Source of the DNA: Schlesneria sp.
GTDB lineage: Bacteria; Planctomycetota; Planctomycetia; Planctomycetales; Planctomycetaceae
Direction of reading: 5' to 3'
Assembly: GCA_028291515.1 (NCBI GenBank)
Contig: JAQGHU010000045.1
Location: forward strand, 1 to 38,821
DNA: 38,821 nucleotides
Under the pieces are notes generated by a model. That model did no database searches, had not been told where the DNA came from, and saw only the letters and a program-made list of their open reading frames with translations. Position 1 is the first letter of the stretch, and every line of letters starts with the position of its first letter. Positions 12,144 through 20,074 of this stretch are shown one piece after another. The position numbers were made by a program, and so were the translations under genes.

Positions 12144-13007
12144 TTAGTACAACGCGGTGGCTAGTTGCCGCCGGAATTCGCCGGTCAGTTCCGAAGCAGG
12201 TCCCAGCATGTCGAAGATCTTTACCATGGTCGCTTTGGCTTCATTGCGGGCTTCGCCGTAGTCCTGCTTCACGATTTCCAGACAAGTCTCCAAAGCCTTG
12301 CGATGCTGTGACACGGCCGCGTAGGCATCTGCCAAACGAACGCGCAGGATCAAGTTGGCTGGATCCGCGTCGGCAGCCTTGCGAGCCTCGTCGACTCCGC
12401 CACTCTCGGCAGCGGCCAAGCGAACTTCCAGTTCCGACTTGATCCGTTCGGCGTCGGGTTCGAGAAAACCACGCGCGGCCAGCGTCTCAATGAGAGAGCC
12501 ACTCTCTTCCAGCCGGTTTTGCTTTAGCAGAACGTTCGCCAGACAAATCCGCAACGAGTCTTCTTTCGGTTCCAGTTCCAGAGCTTCACGATACTTGGAT
12601 TCGGCCAATTTCGGATCGCTCTCGACAAGTGCTGCCGCTTCTTTCGCCAATTCCTGGGCTCGTGAGGGGAGCATCGGGGCCAGCCACTGACGAATCTGCT
12701 CTTCGGTCAACATTCCGACGAACTGATCGACCGGTTGGCCCTGATACAATCCAAAGACCGTTGGCAGCGACTGAATTCCGAAGGCCTGCGCAATTTGTGA
12801 TTCTTCGTCGGTATTGATTTTGGCGAGGATGAATTTGCCGCCGTATTCCCCTGCCAACTTTTCAAGAACCGGTGCCAATTGCAGGCAGGGAGCGCACCAG
12901 GGAGCCCAGAAGTCGATGACGACCAGCGTTTCCATCGATTTCTGGACCACGTCGTTCTGAAACGTGGCCATGGTGACATTGATGACGTGCGACGATGCGG
13001 CGGACAT
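12144..13007 (-). CDS. cnoX: thioredoxin-TPR protein, CnoX/YbbN-like chaperedoxin
   Basis: 287-aa cytosolic protein. Residues 1-115 are a thioredoxin fold with the active site WAPWCAPC (Cys38 and Cys41), the cis-proline loop SLPTV and the KINTDEE strand. Residues about 120-287 are a helical TPR-like region (ESKYREALELEPKEDSLRICLANVLL and similar units), the layout of YbbN/CnoX. E. coli CnoX lacks the paired redox cysteines (SQHC), while this one keeps both, so it probably has oxidoreductase as well as holdase activity; that is inference. The start ATG has GAAAGG 7 bases upstream. It is convergent with the DUF4253 gene and lies 212 bases downstream of the DUF1598-like gene on the same strand. 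Confidence 0.85.
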   Translation of the reverse strand: MSAASSHVINVTMATFQNDVVQKSMETLVVIDFWAPWCAPCLQLAPVLEKLAGEYGGKFILAKINTDEESQIAQAFGIQSLPTVFGLYQGQPVDQFVGMLTEEQIRQWLAPMLPSRAQELAKEAAALVESDPKLAESKYREALELEPKEDSLRICLANVLLKQNRLEESGSLIETLAARGFLEPDAERIKSELEVRLAAAESGGVDEARKAADADPANLILRVRLADAYAAVSQHRKALETCLEIVKQDYGEARNEAKATMVKIFDMLGPASELTGEFRRQLATALY

Positions 13008-13219
13008 ATCGAGGCCTTTCTCAGGGTGAATTCAAGCCATGAGTGTACGCGGTCACGCGCGGGTCGGCAAATGCTGCGAAACGCGCCGACAAAGCAAGAA
13101 ATACCGATCAGGTCAGCATGAGAAGGCGAAGATTCATGCCGGAAAGAATCGGGATCTTGCACGAATGTGCGAGCCCACTTCGCGTCTGGCGGATTCAAGC
13201 GACGAACTTGATTCAAACG

Positions 13220-14647
13220 CTACTTGGAGGTCGTCACTTTCTTATCCGCATCCCACCACCAGCGATGAGTTTCGCTGCGTGCTGTAGACGCTGCAGTTTG
13301 TCGATCAGACTCTAAGCGCTGAGCATCCGTCGCCGGCACGATCGACTTGCCGAGAGTTTGATTGGGGTGAATCGACACACCTCCACCAACAAGACCGACG
13401 ATCATGCTCCCCGCTTTTTTGTAGTTGACCGATGAGGGAACTTGTTTGGGAGCATTGAACGTCGGGACGCCGAGACGTTGTTCATCCAGCAACGTCGCCA
13501 TCTTCCAGTCGACCTTATCGGAAAGCCGCTCTTTGTGAAGCAGTGCGACCAACACAGCCCAGTCGGTCAGATTCTGCAGTTCTCCAAAGATCGGTGACTT
13601 CGCAGCCAGTTCCGGAAATTTCTCGGTAAACTGCTTGGCGAAAGCCTTGGTCGAAATTCGCGTCGTCGCCGCGCCAGATCGATTGCCCTGAGCATCAGCG
13701 ATCTCTTCTTCCGCCAGCAGTTGCAGCCGCTGACCGGCGAATCGAAACGCGAGGCCATCTTCACTGCGGTAGATCGCGTCGTAGAGCGGAACAAACCACC
13801 AGCGCTGCATCGTGTTGCCATTGGCACCCAGCATCGCGAGATGACTTTTCAGCCCTTTAACGCCAGGGTTCTCGTGACCCATCGCGATGCGCTTCATCCG
13901 ATAATCGGCCTCGATCAGGGCCACCGCGAAATGGGTGTCAGGGGACACGCCGTCCACTCGCACGGTCTGCATTCCCAGGATGTCATCCATTTTCTTGAAG
14001 CGTGCCTCGACGACATCAGCAGTGGCAGCACCACCTTGCTTGATGAACTTCTGCAGTTCAGCCAGTCGTTCCGGCACGGGATCGATCGAGCAACCGATAT
14101 TGCGTGCCTGGCGAAGTGTTCGCAACGCGACAACAAAATCATCGAGCCTTAATGTCGGTCGTCCGCTGTTCACGCCAATCATGCGTCCCACGGCATCGGG
14201 GGCGAACCCCTCGGCAGGGCCGGCGATCACGAGGTCTTTCGTTTCCGGCAGTACGAAAACATCTGTGATCTGCTGCAATCCGGCCAGAAAGAAGACCTCG
14301 TCTGGAATAGGCGATTGCTCGGTCAGATGCTTCTCGATCTGCCGCTCCCACTCGACCAGTGAAACATAGCGCAGTTCGCTGGTTTGATTGATGTCCGCGT
14401 TCAAAGATTTCTTGGCAACCAGTTCCCGCCGCTTCTTATCAAGAGTCCCCGTGGAGTCAGTCGCGATCACCACGCTGACAACGCCCGCTGCATCAATCTT
14501 AATTCCCCCAGCATTGTTCTGGTTGTTTCCTCCGTTATTGTTCCCTCCATTGTTGCCCTGTGCGCGAACACTCGTTGGTACAAACGGCGAACCGATGGCA
14601 ATCATCAACGAAGCCAGGATCAGTATCTGACGAAGGGCACGAGACAT
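13220..14647 (-). CDS. exported DUF1598-like planctomycete protein
   Basis: 475-aa secreted or periplasmic protein. It has a signal peptide with cleavage probably after SVRA at about residue 29, then an Asn/Gly-rich linker (about 30-47) and a long globular region with no recognised catalytic motif (VVALRTLRQARNIGCSIDPVPERL, FAVALIEADYRMKRIAMG). The pattern resembles DUF1598, a family known mainly from planctomycetes; this is memory-based and moderate. A 12-base perfect palindrome (14649-14660) containing the GGAAAG ribosome binding site sits just before the ATG. The function is unknown. Confidence 0.72.
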   Translation of the reverse strand: MSRALRQILILASLMIAIGSPFVPTSVRAQGNNGGNNNGGNNQNNAGGIKIDAAGVVSVVIATDSTGTLDKKRRELVAKKSLNADINQTSELRYVSLVEWERQIEKHLTEQSPIPDEVFFLAGLQQITDVFVLPETKDLVIAGPAEGFAPDAVGRMIGVNSGRPTLRLDDFVVALRTLRQARNIGCSIDPVPERLAELQKFIKQGGAATADVVEARFKKMDDILGMQTVRVDGVSPDTHFAVALIEADYRMKRIAMGHENPGVKGLKSHLAMLGANGNTMQRWWFVPLYDAIYRSEDGLAFRFAGQRLQLLAEEEIADAQGNRSGAATTRISTKAFAKQFTEKFPELAAKSPIFGELQNLTDWAVLVALLHKERLSDKVDWKMATLLDEQRLGVPTFNAPKQVPSSVNYKKAGSMIVGLVGGGVSIHPNQTLGKSIVPATDAQRLESDRQTAASTARSETHRWWWDADKKVTTSK

Positions 14648-14795
14648 TGGAAAGCTTTCCGAGTTGTAGACGGGCCCGTATCGAGGGAATCCAGACGGAC
14701 GATCTCATTCTATCGCGGCGATTCGTCGAAAGCAGCATTTTCTTTTGCCGCTGCTCGCTCGCAAAGGCACATCTAGAAGTGATCGGCTCATGCCT

Positions 14796-15293
14796 CTAGA
14801 TCCCGACGCGCATCTCACACATGGCCCATTGTCCGAAGTTCTCTTCGACTTCGACACGTAGCGAACTTAGATTTCGACTTCCCGGATGCTGTCGCAGAAC
14901 TTCGCGTAGTTGCTGGCCCATCCAATGAGCGATCAGTTCGGCGGTGGTGTTGGCAACGGGCAGCAGGATGCAGTCCTCGCGAGGAAACACCCACCGACGC
15001 TCTTCAAATGTCGCGGTCACTTCGCGATCGTCAGCCACGACCTTAATCTTGGGATGCGATGTTGGCAGCAAGACTCGATGATCCAGGTCATTCACGAGCT
15101 TTTGTGTGGCATCCCGCAGAGCGATGAAGTCGAAGACGTAGCTGTTCTCGTCAAGCGGCCCGGCGACTTCCACGGCAACGCGCCAGTTATGTCCATGCAG
15201 TCGCTCACAGATATTGCCATTGAAGGTAATGAAGTGCGCGGCACTAAAAACCAGATGGTCCTTGGTCACGCGAACGCGATATTGCTCAGTCAT
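14796..15293 (-). CDS. 6-pyruvoyl-tetrahydropterin synthase / QueD family protein
   Basis: 165-aa T-fold enzyme. Zinc ligands appear as His20 in FSAAHF and His33/His35 in RLHGHNW, with Cys29 in the usual catalytic position (NICE..HGHN), LDHRVLL in the middle and the C-terminal EVEENFGQWA carrying the pterin-anchoring Glu. The family converts 7,8-dihydroneopterin triphosphate to 6-pyruvoyl-tetrahydropterin or to 6-carboxy-tetrahydropterin (QueD). I cannot tell which from the sequence alone. The start ATG 15291-15293 overlaps the upstream CitG-like gene by 8 bases and lacks a good ribosome binding site, so translational coupling is likely. A longer frame starting at 15335 is rejected because it adds 14 codons inside the upstream gene. 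The context (CitG-like protein and dehydrogenase, no other queuosine genes) argues for a pterin cofactor rather than queuosine, as inference. Confidence 0.85.
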   Translation of the reverse strand: MTEQYRVRVTKDHLVFSAAHFITFNGNICERLHGHNWRVAVEVAGPLDENSYVFDFIALRDATQKLVNDLDHRVLLPTSHPKIKVVADDREVTATFEERRWVFPREDCILLPVANTTAELIAHWMGQQLREVLRQHPGSRNLSSLRVEVEENFGQWAMCEMRVGI

Positions 15294-16239
15294 GATGGGG
15301 CTTTTCTGTGGGGGCTTGTCGAATACGAGCCGCATGCTGCAGCACTTCGTCGCGGGTCGGTGGCTCGATCACATCGTATCGGATAGCGATTAGCAACGTG
15401 GCCGCGATCAAGTCCGCTGTCGTGCCTGGATTTCGCCGATGTCCATCGCCGCGCAGCCATTCGTCGAATCGATGAAGTGCGTTCCAGCCTTCCAGATGAG
15501 CTGGCCAGTCGGTGCGAACCACAGCTGCAGCTCGTTCCTGCAGTTCCTTGGCCACGGTCGAACCGCATTTGCGAACGACCAGGGAATCAGGTCCATCGGC
15601 CAACAGCTTCAGTTGCAGTCGGATCACACTTGCTTCCCAGGGAACAAGTCCGGGCAACCCAGCCAACGTGTCGATTTGTCGGATCACACTCCCTAACTGG
15701 TGGCACCAGTTCCAATTGTCCAGGAGCCAGGGCAGGGCCAACCGCTCAACGTAGGCGTAGTTTGTGGAATACTGCTCAGCAATCCGATCGCGATCGGCAG
15801 CGAGTGCCATAGCGTCGCGCAGTGAAATTGTCGGCCTATCGTGAACGTCTTGAGACTTAACTTGTCCCATTCCACCAGGTCTCGCTAGGCGAATCGCTGC
15901 ATAAACGTGCTCCGCATCTTCTATCGTTGTTTGCGACAGAACATCGGCAATTCCTTCTGGCTGATCGAGTGCTACTGCAGCCAGTGGAGCGATTAACAGC
16001 GCAATTCCGAGATTCACATTAGACCGGGACTCGCGGTGAGTCTGCTCGATGGCATTGAGTACCGATCTCCCCAGGCCGACATGCTGACTGGCAGCCAGCG
16101 GTTCTGCGATTGCCGCTGCCGCCGAGACGAAATCGTCGTAGCAGAGATCTTCGAACGAAGCTCCCGGGTGGACATTTCCCACCTTCCGCGCCGTGGCTTC
16201 CATCAGGCAACTGATCTCAATTTGCTCGGCCAGGTTCAT
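15286..16239 (-). CDS. CitG-like (triphosphoribosyl-dephospho-CoA synthase family) protein
   Basis: 317-aa protein with the CitG/MdcB family pattern: KVGNVHPGASFEDLCYDDF at about residues 19-37 (family form KPGNVHPG..F.D) and SNVNLGIALLIAPLAAVAL (family form NTNLGIILLLAPLA). The family attaches a phosphoribosyl group to dephospho-CoA in citrate lyase and malonate decarboxylase biogenesis, but no citrate lyase or malonate decarboxylase genes are here. Stand-alone archaeal and planctomycete-type homologues have been annotated near pterin-linked C1 genes; I recall this without being able to verify it. Its ATG overlaps the stop of the upstream dehydrogenase (ATGA) and its stop overlaps the PTPS start, so the three genes form one tightly coupled operon. 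A role in transferring a ribosyl-phosphate group during pterin cofactor synthesis is speculative. Confidence 0.78.
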   Translation of the reverse strand: MNLAEQIEISCLMEATARKVGNVHPGASFEDLCYDDFVSAAAAIAEPLAASQHVGLGRSVLNAIEQTHRESRSNVNLGIALLIAPLAAVALDQPEGIADVLSQTTIEDAEHVYAAIRLARPGGMGQVKSQDVHDRPTISLRDAMALAADRDRIAEQYSTNYAYVERLALPWLLDNWNWCHQLGSVIRQIDTLAGLPGLVPWEASVIRLQLKLLADGPDSLVVRKCGSTVAKELQERAAAVVRTDWPAHLEGWNALHRFDEWLRGDGHRRNPGTTADLIAATLLIAIRYDVIEPPTRDEVLQHAARIRQAPTEKPHHD

Positions 16240-17219
16240 CGAATGGTCTTTGCCGGAAAGTCGACGATAACTTTGATCGCCCCGTCTCGTCGATCACGAA
16301 ATAGCTCAAAGGCCTGCTGCAATTGAGACAACGGGAAGCGATGCGTGATGATCGGCGAGACATCAATTCGTCCTTCGCCGATCCATCGCATCGCCAGCGG
16401 AAAATCGCGGCCAAAATCGGGGCCGACCGAGGTATGGACCGTCACGTTCTTGAAGAACAGATCTCGCCAGCGCAGGCCATCGACCAGCTTTGGCGGGACA
16501 CCAAAACAGAGCAACTGGCCACCTTTCCGGCAGAGATCAATGCAAAGATTCAGTTGCTGATCGGCATGCCCCACGCATTCGATCACAACATCCGGCAGGT
16601 GCCCCCCGAGAATCTTACGTATCGCTTCGACCGGATCCTGCTTCAAGTTGCAGACCGTGGCCGTCGCGCCCATTTTCGGACTGACCTGCAATCGACTTTC
16701 CAGCAGGTCGATCCCGATGATATGGCGAGCTCCCATGTTTCGCAGGGCCGCATTCATCAGTTGGCCCATCGGTCCCTGACCAACGATTGCCACGTCGAGA
16801 TCCAGCAGGTTGGGAAGCTTCTTGAGGGCAAAGATCGCCGTCCCCAACGGCTGCGCCATCAACGCTTGTTCTTCAGGAATGTTGGTTGCAATCGAGATCG
16901 CCTGGTTCTCATCCAGCACATATCTCTCGAACAGCCCCTGTTGAGCCACAGGCACCGCCAGAACTCGATCACCGACCTTCCACCGGTGGCCGTTCGTGGC
17001 CGTAACCGTTCCGATCATCTCATGCAGCGAATGTCCGATCTCGATTGGCCATTCATCCCAGCCATTGAAGTAGGGGAGGTCCGAACCGCAGAGGCACGTT
17101 GTTTCGGGCTGGAAGATGATCTGCCCCGAAATTCCATCCGGCGGGACATCCGCCAACATCGGTTCAGGAAGATCAACCAGCCGAATCTTTCCAGGGGCAT
17201 ACATGTCACCGGCGAGCAT
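16236..17219 (-). CDS. zinc-type medium-chain dehydrogenase/reductase
   Basis: 327-aa MDR-superfamily oxidoreductase. The N-terminal GroES-like domain carries the probable catalytic zinc ligands Cys44 (CLCGSD), His63 (IGHSLHE) and Glu67. The nucleotide-binding Rossmann domain has VGQGPMG at 146-152 followed by an acidic GIDLLESR turn, suggesting NAD. The four-cysteine structural zinc lobe is absent, because no CxxCxxC run follows VGDRVLAVP, so this is a short-lobed MDR. The start ATG 17217-17219 has GAGGA 7 bases upstream, and the longer open frame adds 19 unlikely residues. It is first gene of the operon with the CitG-like and PTPS genes. The substrate is unknown: alcohol, polyol or threonine-like substrates fit the fold. 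Confidence 0.85.
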   Translation of the reverse strand: MLAGDMYAPGKIRLVDLPEPMLADVPPDGISGQIIFQPETTCLCGSDLPYFNGWDEWPIEIGHSLHEMIGTVTATNGHRWKVGDRVLAVPVAQQGLFERYVLDENQAISIATNIPEEQALMAQPLGTAIFALKKLPNLLDLDVAIVGQGPMGQLMNAALRNMGARHIIGIDLLESRLQVSPKMGATATVCNLKQDPVEAIRKILGGHLPDVVIECVGHADQQLNLCIDLCRKGGQLLCFGVPPKLVDGLRWRDLFFKNVTVHTSVGPDFGRDFPLAMRWIGEGRIDVSPIITHRFPLSQLQQAFELFRDRRDGAIKVIVDFPAKTIR

Positions 17220-17297
17220 AGCCAATTCCTCGTGCCATCGTATGGTTCGATTCGCGCAACTGCGATAATCGCACACGAGCAGATTGCACCTGTTCTC

Positions 17298-17789
17298 TTA
17301 TCCTTCGTCAACGTAGATGGCGAGGCACTTCTTATCTTGCCAAAAGGTTTCCAATGTCAGCTTGGGCTTGATCACGCACTTGATGGTCAATGGGCTCAAT
17401 CGAACACTAATGGCATGGCTTCCTCTGCCATCGAAGGTTCCAATATCCACGATCTCGGCCCCGCTCAATTCCAGACCATTCCTTTTCAGATAGTCCATGA
17501 TCGTCGGTACCTGAAGATCGACACCCGTTGTTGCTTCCGCGTGAGGATTTCGAAGCACTTTCGCGGTGGCAGTAAGCTCTGCCAGATCAGCCGGATGCCG
17601 ACGAAAGTGTTCTTCATAACTGCGGTAATAGATCGATTCTAGAGCTTCGCCTTGCGTCATGAAGACTCCATCCACAACGTATCCAACCTCCCAATCACCG
17701 TAGAGTCGATCCCATTCGCGCTGACGAGCGGTGCGCTGCTTGACGCCCCCCGCGTTCCCAATTCTGCGTTCCACGATCTTCCATGCCAT
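17298..17789 (-). CDS. hypothetical protein upstream of the dehydrogenase operon
   Basis: 163-aa soluble protein that I do not recognise. It has no signal peptide or membrane segment. It contains a WDRLYGDWEVGYVVDGVFMTQ segment and an YYRSYEEHFRRHP segment in the first half, and a GAEIVDIGTFDGRGSHAISVRL segment with a VIKPKL strand near the end. The latter half is beta-rich. A weak GGTGA precedes the ATG at 17787-17789. It is on the same strand and 78 bases upstream of the dehydrogenase start, so it may be the first gene of that operon. The balanced codon use and length support a real gene. Confidence 0.65.
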   Translation of the reverse strand: MAWKIVERRIGNAGGVKQRTARQREWDRLYGDWEVGYVVDGVFMTQGEALESIYYRSYEEHFRRHPADLAELTATAKVLRNPHAEATTGVDLQVPTIMDYLKRNGLELSGAEIVDIGTFDGRGSHAISVRLSPLTIKCVIKPKLTLETFWQDKKCLAIYVDEG

Positions 17790-17866
17790 GGGTCATTCAC
17801 CGAAGGTCGGGAGGAGACTGCTACCGGTCCATTGCGATTTAAGATTGTGCCAAATCATGCCACTGC

Positions 17867-17906
17867 AAAACAGCAAAGCCCGGCTTGTTTCCAAACCGAG
17901 CTTTGC
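17867..17906 (-). terminator. probable intrinsic terminator of the EF-G gene
   Basis: Read on the minus strand, an imperfect stem GCAAAGC/GCTTTGC extended by CGG/CCG pairs, with a short loop, ends in a T-containing tract (TGTTTT). It lies about 30 bases past the EF-G stop. The stem has one wobble and one bulge, so confidence is moderate. Confidence 0.6.
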
Positions 17907-17935
17907 AAGTTCATTCACCGAACAGGTCTGAAGCT

Positions 17936-20074
17936 TTACTTCATTGCGGCGCGTTCGGCCTTTTCTTTCATTCGCTTCTCGACCACTTCGTCCTGCAAGC
18001 CGCGAGGCAGCATCGCGTAGTGGGCAAATTCCATGCTGAATGTTCCCTTGCCCTGCGTCATCGATCGCACTTCGTTGGCATAGTCGAACATGCTGGCCAG
18101 TGGCACTTCGGCGATGATCACGGCCATCCCCATATTGGTTTCGGTCGAGTTCACCAAACCGCGCTTACTGGACAGGTGACCTGTCACGTTCCCCTGGTAT
18201 TCATCGGGAACTTCCACTTCCAACTTCATGATCGGCTCGAGCAGACCGATGGCGGCCTTCTTAAGCGATTCACGCATACAGTCAAACGCACAGATGTTGA
18301 ACGCCATTTCAGACGAATCGACATCGTGATAGGTACCGTCCTGCAGGATCATCTGGACGTTCACCACTTCGCATTCACACAACGGTCCCTTGACCAGCGC
18401 CCGCTGGAATCCTTCATCGATCGGCTTGATATATTCCTTGGGAATACGTCCGCCGGTGACATCGTTGACGAATTCATAGGGGATGGCACTGTCGACAGGC
18501 AACGGAACCAGCTTACCGACCACATGGCCGTATTGACCGGAACCACCCGTTTGCTTCTTGTGCTTGTAGTTAAATTCGACTTCTTTCGTGGGGGTTTCGC
18601 GATAGGCCACGCGAGGATTCCCGATGATGCATTCGACGCCATATTCACGCTTGATGCGTTCGACGTAGATGTCCAGATGCAACTGACCCATACCGGCGAT
18701 CAGCGTCTGGCCGGTTTCTTCGTCGGTCAGGACGCGGAAGGTCGGATCTTCGCGGCGGAAACGTTCCAGGGCCTTGCCAAGCTTATCGGCACCGTCTCGC
18801 TTGACCGGTTCAATACTGAGTCGGATCACCGCATCGGGAACGAAAATACTTTCCAGCGAATACGTCACCGATTCGCTACAGAACGTATCCCCCGAGGCGC
18901 AATCGACCCCGACCAGGGCGACGATGTCGCCGGCTTCTGCAACTTCCACGTCGGCACGGTCGTTCGCGTGCATGCGCACCAAGCGACCGAACCGTACCTT
19001 TTTACCGGTGCGAGTATTGAAGTAGCTGTCGCCCTTCACGATCTTACCTTGATAGATTCGTGTGTACGTCAACTGACCGTATTGCTCGACCACGGTCTTG
19101 AACGCCATGCAGACCATCGGCTTGTCCGGGTTGGATTCCAGTTTGACGCGGTTCCAGTTGGGAATCTTCGTCTCTTCTTCCGAAGTCGGCTTCTTGAGTT
19201 GGTCGATGGCAGTCATCGTGCGATCGAGCGGGCTTGGCAGGAAATAGGTCACGCCGTCGAGCGCTTCCTGAACACCTTTGTTCTTGTAGGCCGAACCCAT
19301 CATCACCGGGGTAATCTGTAGAGCGATGGTCGCATCGCGGACGACCTTACGAATCTCGGCGACACTGATTTCAGCTTCTTCAAGCAGCTTTTCCATTAAC
19401 GAATCGCTGAACATCGACAGCGTTTCGAGCATCTGATGGCGCGCTTCTTTGGCCTTCTCCTGAAATTCTGCAGGAATTGCTTCACGACGAATGAACTCGC
19501 CGTCTTCGCCGTCGAAGAAGATCGCTTCCATCGCCAACAGATCGATGACGCCAGCAAACTCGGCTTCGCGACCCATCGGAATCTGCAGCGGGACCGGGAT
19601 CACGCCCAGCTTTTCGCGGATCTGCGAAATGACCTTGTCCGGATTGGCACCGGTACGGTCCATCTTGTTGATGAACGCAATTCGAGGAACCTTGTACCGC
19701 TTCATCTGACGATCGACGGTCAACGATTGGCTCTGCACGCCACCGACCGAGCACAACACTAAGATGGCCCCGTCCAGTACGCGCAGCGATCGTTCCACTT
19801 CGACCGTGAAGTCGACGTGGCCAGGGGTATCGATGACGTTGACAGTGTAATCACCCCAGTGCACCTGCGTGGCGGCCGCAGTAATCGTGATCCCTTTTTC
19901 TCGTTCGAGTTCCATGAAGTCCATTGTCGCGCCGACTTTGTCCTTCCCCTTCACTTCATGGATTTCGTGAATTCGACCGGAGTAAAACAGGATCCGCTCG
20001 GTCAGCGTCGTTTTGCCCGAGTCAATGTGAGCAGAGATACCGATGTTGCGGACTTTTTCGAGGTTCATAGCCAT
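17936..20074 (-). CDS. fusA: translation elongation factor G, spirochaete/planctomycete (EFG1-like) type
   Basis: 712-aa ribosomal translocase GTPase. G1 motif [13 protein letters not shown] (residues 15-27) has Ser where most bacterial EF-Gs have Ala and Leu where they have Thr, as in mitochondrial EFG1 and the spd subfamily of spirochaetes and planctomycetes. G3 (DTPGH) and G4 (NKMD) are intact. Domain IV is recognisable from its [12 protein letters not shown] stretch, and domain V from [15 protein letters not shown] and the terminal [10 protein letters not shown]. In this subfamily EFG1 is the translocation form and a separate EFG2 has a different role; which role this copy takes is inferred from sequence type. 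It stands alone rather than in a str operon with rpsL, rpsG and tuf. Confidence 0.95.

Follow-up and report, generated by a model that had tools for sequence, protein, structure and literature searches.

The CitG-like and PTPS genes of a locus in Schlesneria sp. are a conserved pair and probably constitute the functional unit of that locus, and comparison across planctomycete genomes makes it highly probable that the CitG-like gene belongs with the H4MPT system. With confidence a little above even, we favor a reading in which both proteins serve (dephospho)H4MPT synthesis, the CitG-like protein by alpha-ribosyl transfer and PTPS by supplying a pterin precursor, with the adjoining MDR dehydrogenase as a passenger. 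Four results presented here support it: the co-occurrence of CitG with Mch, the pairing with PTPS together with one gene fusion, a separate clade that keeps the core residues of CitG and changes others, and a trend for PTPS to be present in place of FolB.

The window, meaning the whole 38,821-nucleotide stretch of DNA that was analyzed, is one contig (C101) among the 119 that make up an 8.59-Mb genome. A sequence-only reading had described three genes joined by an ATGA overlap and an 8-base overlap, and both the sequence and Pfam matches confirm this arrangement (Table 1). The MDR frame is also open further upstream, from a GTG at 17276, and the longest PTPS frame begins at 15335; most aligned relatives of PTPS start near the shorter ATG. 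The genes lie in a block at 12144-20074 that comprises EF-G, CitG-PTPS, DUF1598 and a thioredoxin-TPR protein and also occurs, without the MDR gene, in another genome (G171); EF-G and CitG-PTPS are found together in G048, G069 and others as well. Between EF-G and the MDR gene, a 163-residue open reading frame (17298-17789) had no match in Pfam or NCBIfam. Of the C1 genes, mch and an orf5-like gene were confirmed in this genome: these follow one another on contig C41, apart from CitG-like and PTPS on C101.

Table 1. Coordinates of the genes and gene overlaps at the Schlesneria locus.
Feature	Position in window	Strand	Evidence or remark
MDR (zinc-type) dehydrogenase, 327 aa	16236..17219	-	ATG start; Pfam ADH_zinc_N, 79 bits
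MDR/CitG-like ATGA overlap	16236..16239	-	Sequence; CitG-like start shares ATGA with MDR stop
CitG-like (PF01874) protein, 317 aa, C1/Orf7 clade	15286..16239	-	Pfam CitG, 188 bits (cut-off 27)
CitG-like/PTPS 8-base overlap	15286..15293	-	Sequence
PTPS-I/III homologue, 165 aa from ATG at 15293	14796..15293	-	Pfam PTPS, 84 bits (cut-off 22.4)

Profile searches of one set of 392 planctomycete genomes for CitG (PF01874) and for Mch (PF02289) placed each gene above cut-off in 50; both were present in 49 genomes and neither in 341, and each occurred alone once (Fisher p 3e-60, a value that ignores the kinship of the genomes). Four CitG matches below cut-off (G043, G083, G257 and G278; about 20 bits, no Mch) were scored as absent, and in G396, counted among the 49, Mch is a mere fragment at a contig end. 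Genomes with both genes come from nine families (f1, f2, f50, f52, f64, f67, f73, f78 and f79), of which f64 also includes a genome, G111, with neither. The one genome with CitG alone (G303) carries a true citrate-lyase CitG, in the form of a CitX-CitG fusion with KPGLV beside citE and citF (L234:4832-8729). The one with Mch alone (G399; L235:8120-10046) gave no CitG match; its Mch is divergent and lies next to an FhcD homologue, possibly reflecting a different or reduced C1 route. In a smaller sample of 149 genomes, 14 had the two genes together and none had one alone at cut-off. The proposed tie between the CitG-like gene and H4MPT-type C1 metabolism is upheld by these counts: CitG without Mch was seen in 1 of 50 cases in the phylum sample, that one being a true CitG, and homologues of the CitG-like subtype in genomes without C1-pterin genes are nearly absent.

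Within the family to which the window belongs, 59 of 61 genomes have CitG and 57 have Mch, and 56 of the 59 with CitG also have Mch. CitG lacked an Mch match in G161, G176 and G199, Mch was found without CitG in G168, and neither was found in G182. Completeness is 78-80% for G161, G182 and G199; since G176 and G168 are 98% and 97% complete, they are either real exceptions or assembly gaps. Among 14 named control genomes, CitG was present in E. coli, which has citrate lyase, and in four archaea, M. jannaschii, M. acetivorans, H. volcanii and S. acidocaldarius; all of these archaea except S. acidocaldarius gave an Mch match. Haloarchaea use folate, and the presence of both CitG and Mch matches in H. 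volcanii counts against the H4MPT reading. For Sulfolobales, PMC3261824 reports a folate analogue with methanopterin traits, and CitG without Mch in S. acidocaldarius agrees with a biosynthetic role.

The association of PTPS with the CitG-like gene, also claimed at the outset, holds well beyond this locus. The CitG gene and a window-type PTPS gene lie on the same strand, overlapping or no more than 200 nt apart, in 38 of 49 genomes (10/14, 20/23 and 8/12 combined), which represent seven of the families listed above (all except f50 and f64); in G356 the two are separated by 1.08 kb. One of the 38 (G133; L079:8517-9938) has both Pfam domains in a single 473-residue open reading frame, a fusion that may be a sequencing error because it comes from one draft assembly. 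In the window's own family the pair is adjacent in 24 of 59 genomes, and 5 of the other 35 have fewer than 250 bases of contig left. Four planctomycetes outside it (G148, G117, G064 and G133) have mch, a RimK-like gene, CitG-like and PTPS in a row. The exact overlaps seen in the window vary between genomes; what is kept is the adjacency of CitG and PTPS.

On the evidence of gene order, the CitG-like gene corresponds to Orf7 of the methylotroph H4MPT cluster. CitG-like matches occur in 32 plasmid records, of which seven proteobacterial loci were read, and in all seven a Mch homologue lies within two genes of the CitG-like gene; a contig scan of genomes with a single protein yielded two loci only. 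Phyllobacterium, Azospirillum and Azoarcus share the order mch, RimK-like (Orf5; labeled 'hypothetical' in Azoarcus), CitG-like, fae, and mch-orf5-orf7-fae is the order given for Methylosinus in the section of PMC3615186 on this cluster. The initial description of the trio as an undescribed system was overstated in that the gene is part of an archaeal-like cluster described there. The Orf7 of Methylosinus and Methylorubrum belongs to the same Pfam family as the CitG-like protein, and in the Schlesneria genome, unlike those clusters, the gene is away from mch and paired with PTPS. The 'Orf7' that appears in a passage of PMC4683180 is an unrelated nitrate-reductase protein.

The window's CitG-like protein carries the signatures KxGNV, NVNLG and NPGTTAD. 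An alignment of 70 planctomycete rows, 7 proteobacterial rows and 7 CitG/MdcB rows (triphosphoribosyl-dephospho-CoA synthases) shows that a common fold family and core are retained, with K19, G21, V23, N74, G78, A275 and D276 invariant across the three groups. The clade differs from CitG/MdcB at other positions. NxNLG occurs in 69 of 70 planctomycete rows (NAHLG in the other) and in 7/7 proteobacterial C1 rows, at a site where the CitG/MdcB rows have NTHKG (three), NTHRG (three) or NAHAG (one); the His of GxHxD, at position 29 in all seven CitG/MdcB rows, is mostly replaced by F or G; and S/T-x-G-G becomes NPGT. The CitG/MdcB signatures KPGLV, NTHKG/NTHRG and GG-AD are accordingly absent from the clade. 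In a 29-row tree, a branch with 100/100 support separates 22 C1 rows from the 7 CitG/MdcB rows, within which there are long branches, and the seven proteobacterial proteins from C1 loci share the side and the signatures of the window protein. The sole solved relative that we found, PDB 3h9p (presumably from Archaeoglobus fulgidus, and a putative triphosphoribosyl-dephospho-CoA synthase by annotation), has NPGT-AD and differs from the window clade in having NVHFG at the NxNLG site. A structure prediction from a three-row alignment gave a mean pLDDT of 43.5 and was set aside.

The PTPS motif in the window, CERLHGH, conforms in the alignment to CExxHGH, the PTPS-I/III signature, and the CE form was found in 31/31 and 21/21 loci with PTPS near CitG in two locus sets. 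The genome encodes a further family member, a paralogue on contig C117 that has CKHLHGH, the QueD form. According to the motif classification in PMC5041015, CxxxHGH marks QueD, ExxHGH marks PTPS-III, and CExxHGH marks hybrids able to serve both folate and queuosine; it also assigns PTPS-III members to H4MPT synthesis in specific archaea. The window PTPS has the motif and the FolB-replacing tendency in common with the PTPS-I/III hybrids (COG0720) and differs from them in its partnership with a CitG-like gene, which includes one fusion. Among the 61 genomes of the family, 15 have both PTPS and FolB, 30 PTPS only, 14 FolB only and 2 neither (Fisher p 0.0003, with kinship ignored), so that FolB is found in 14 of the 16 genomes that lack a window-type PTPS at the E-value used vs 15 of the 45 that have it; the two genomes with neither are 86-87% complete. 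A search of the Schlesneria genome for FolB gave no match. One candidate stand-in, annotated 'dihydroneopterin aldolase' (L085:21891-22526), was rejected, since it matches the amino acid kinase family and is probably a misnamed Orf21/MfnE. The counts indicate that PTPS can substitute for FolB, and this ability suggests as its product 6-hydroxymethyl-dihydropterin, the pterin common to folate and H4MPT. We consider it likely that the enzyme makes 6-hydroxymethyl-7,8-dihydropterin from dihydroneopterin triphosphate and bypasses FolB. The replacement trend alone does not prove a role for PTPS in H4MPT synthesis.

A candidate reaction for the CitG-like protein follows from what the two systems share. 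CitG moves the ribosyl triphosphate of ATP onto a hydroxyl in alpha linkage, and H4MPT contains one ribose that is alpha-linked to its deoxyribitol; the first ribose, which is C-linked, is made by RFAP synthase. We know of no gene assigned to the alpha-ribosyl step of methanopterin synthesis, and RFAP synthase aside, the labeled genes of the cluster include no other evident ribosyl transferase. PMC8141765 gives phosphate and hydroxyglutarate as the only groups missing from bacterial dH4MPT, which should therefore keep this ribose. Taken together, the alpha-ribosyl chemistry of CitG, the alpha-ribose of H4MPT, a methylofuran without ribose and a cluster without another evident transferase lead us to propose, at somewhat better than even odds, that the CitG-like protein adds the alpha-ribosyl group of (dephospho)H4MPT. 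Several points count against it: ribosylation in methanogen extracts reportedly drew on PRPP, vs ATP for CitG; loss of the His/Lys of NTHKG and of the His of GxHxD suggests that the chemistry may have changed as well; and in Proteobacteria the gene sits beside Orf5/MyfB, a methylofuran enzyme. Also weighing against the overall reading are the exceptions to co-occurrence (CitG alone in G161, G176 and G199, Mch alone in G168 and G399), adjacency of the pair in no more than 24 of 59 genomes of the window's family, and the lack of a window-type PTPS in 16 of 61. In the proposed scheme, PTPS would convert dihydroneopterin triphosphate to 6-hydroxymethyl-7,8-dihydropterin without FolB, and its product would feed H4MPT and also, in this genome without a FolB match, folate. 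The CitG-like protein would use CitG-type chemistry to place a ribosyl phosphate in alpha linkage onto a hydroxyl of the 1-deoxyribitol in a pterin-arylamine precursor. We infer the acceptor, the sequence of the reactions and the donor, which could be PRPP or, as for CitG itself, ATP.

Other readings of the locus can be set against this scheme. That all three genes form one pathway, as was originally supposed, stands for the CitG-like/PTPS pair and fails for the dehydrogenase, which in that case would turn the ribose ring, by reduction, into the H4MPT deoxyribitol. Such a reduction is a step that the pathway does require, the ATGA overlap joins the MDR and CitG-like genes here, and they also adjoin in G149. 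MDR is present, however, in 33 of 61 genomes of the family (E up to 1e-30) vs 57 of 61 for Mch, and only in this genome and G149, two of the 33, is it beside CitG; near CitG, it was seen in 2 of 91 genomes with CitG loci read (68 + 23, some loci stopping at contig ends). In a congener, G180, MDR comes after EF-G, with CitG located on a different contig, and G171 has EF-G, CitG, PTPS, DUF1598 and a thioredoxin-like protein in order with no MDR. On distribution and synteny we reject MDR as a pathway member; the three-gene pathway is very improbable, and the gene is probably a passenger, a neighbor outside the functional unit. Even less credible, with hardly any chance of being right, is the idea that the CitG-like protein is a true CitG or MdcB, supplying citrate lyase or malonate decarboxylase with the precursor of its prosthetic group. 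The Pfam CitG match speaks for it, but the NCBIfam CitG/MdcB models (TIGR03125, TIGR03132) do not match the window protein at E 0.001, and relatives (L085, L072) score no higher than 44 bits where the cut-offs are 272-282, while E. coli CitG and a plasmid MdcB pass theirs. With the motifs and the position across the 100/100 branch, these scores lead us to reject such an identity; in addition, no citrate lyase or malonate decarboxylase genes were seen among the window's scanned families or in the labeled neighborhoods. As a separate observation, some 3 kb separate a window-type MDR gene from an FhcD homologue (41% identity) in G188 (L153:2311-7303), the one such genome among those read.

Two further alternatives keep the C1 or pterin context and change the product. 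The CitG-like protein might serve methylofuran, which carries the formyl group in this pathway, instead of H4MPT. We regard this as quite doubtful: its planctomycete partner is a pterin enzyme, and we know of no methanofuran in S. acidocaldarius, which has CitG without an Mch match. The gene does adjoin an Orf5-like ligase in 6 of 7 proteobacterial loci and in several planctomycetes, and PMC8141765 assigns two genes of the cluster to methylofuran, Orf5, which is the methylofuran glutamate ligase MyfB, and Orf17; yet methylofuran as given there consists of furan, tyrosine/tyramine and glutamates, with no ribose. It is also possible, if unlikely, that PTPS serves folate (or queuosine) alone and adjoins the CitG-like gene by position only. 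A folate-only role would agree with replacement of FolB, a folate-pathway gene, with the dual capacity of CExxHGH hybrids in the PMC5041015 classification, and with the 14 of 16 genomes without window-type PTPS that have FolB, most of which still have Mch. It would account poorly for pairing across at least seven families and one fused frame, for coexistence of PTPS with FolB in 15 of 61 genomes, for a second PTPS with a QueD motif in this genome, and for the H4MPT role of PTPS-III members in some archaea (the same part of PMC5041015). Because the pterin precursor is common to both cofactors, a PTPS that serves folate and H4MPT alike is the simplest reading.

To our knowledge, three cluster genes are without an assigned reaction, Orf7 (CitG-like), Orf19 and Orf20, the last two of which we take to be DUF6513 and DUF447, respectively; Orf19 scores 198 bits with a dihydropteroate-synthase-like model, under the cut-off of 257. 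We likewise know of three steps without genes: ribosylation, pterin-arylamine condensation and reduction to the ribitol. Three reaction-less genes and three gene-less steps invite a one-to-one pairing that is directly testable. Open-licence literature, which leaves most subscription journals outside, yielded nothing on triphosphoribosyl and methanopterin jointly, and a ribosyl role for Orf7 may already have been proposed. We give an even chance to the broader proposition that the Orf7/CitG-like clade is the alpha-ribosyltransferase of methanopterin synthesis in bacteria and archaea, that its acceptor, and perhaps its donor, changed along with the shift from NTHKG to NxNLG, and that with PTPS it forms a two-enzyme unit in planctomycetes, fused in one lineage. 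If this is true, the common annotation of the clade as triphosphoribosyl-dephospho-CoA synthase would be wrong.
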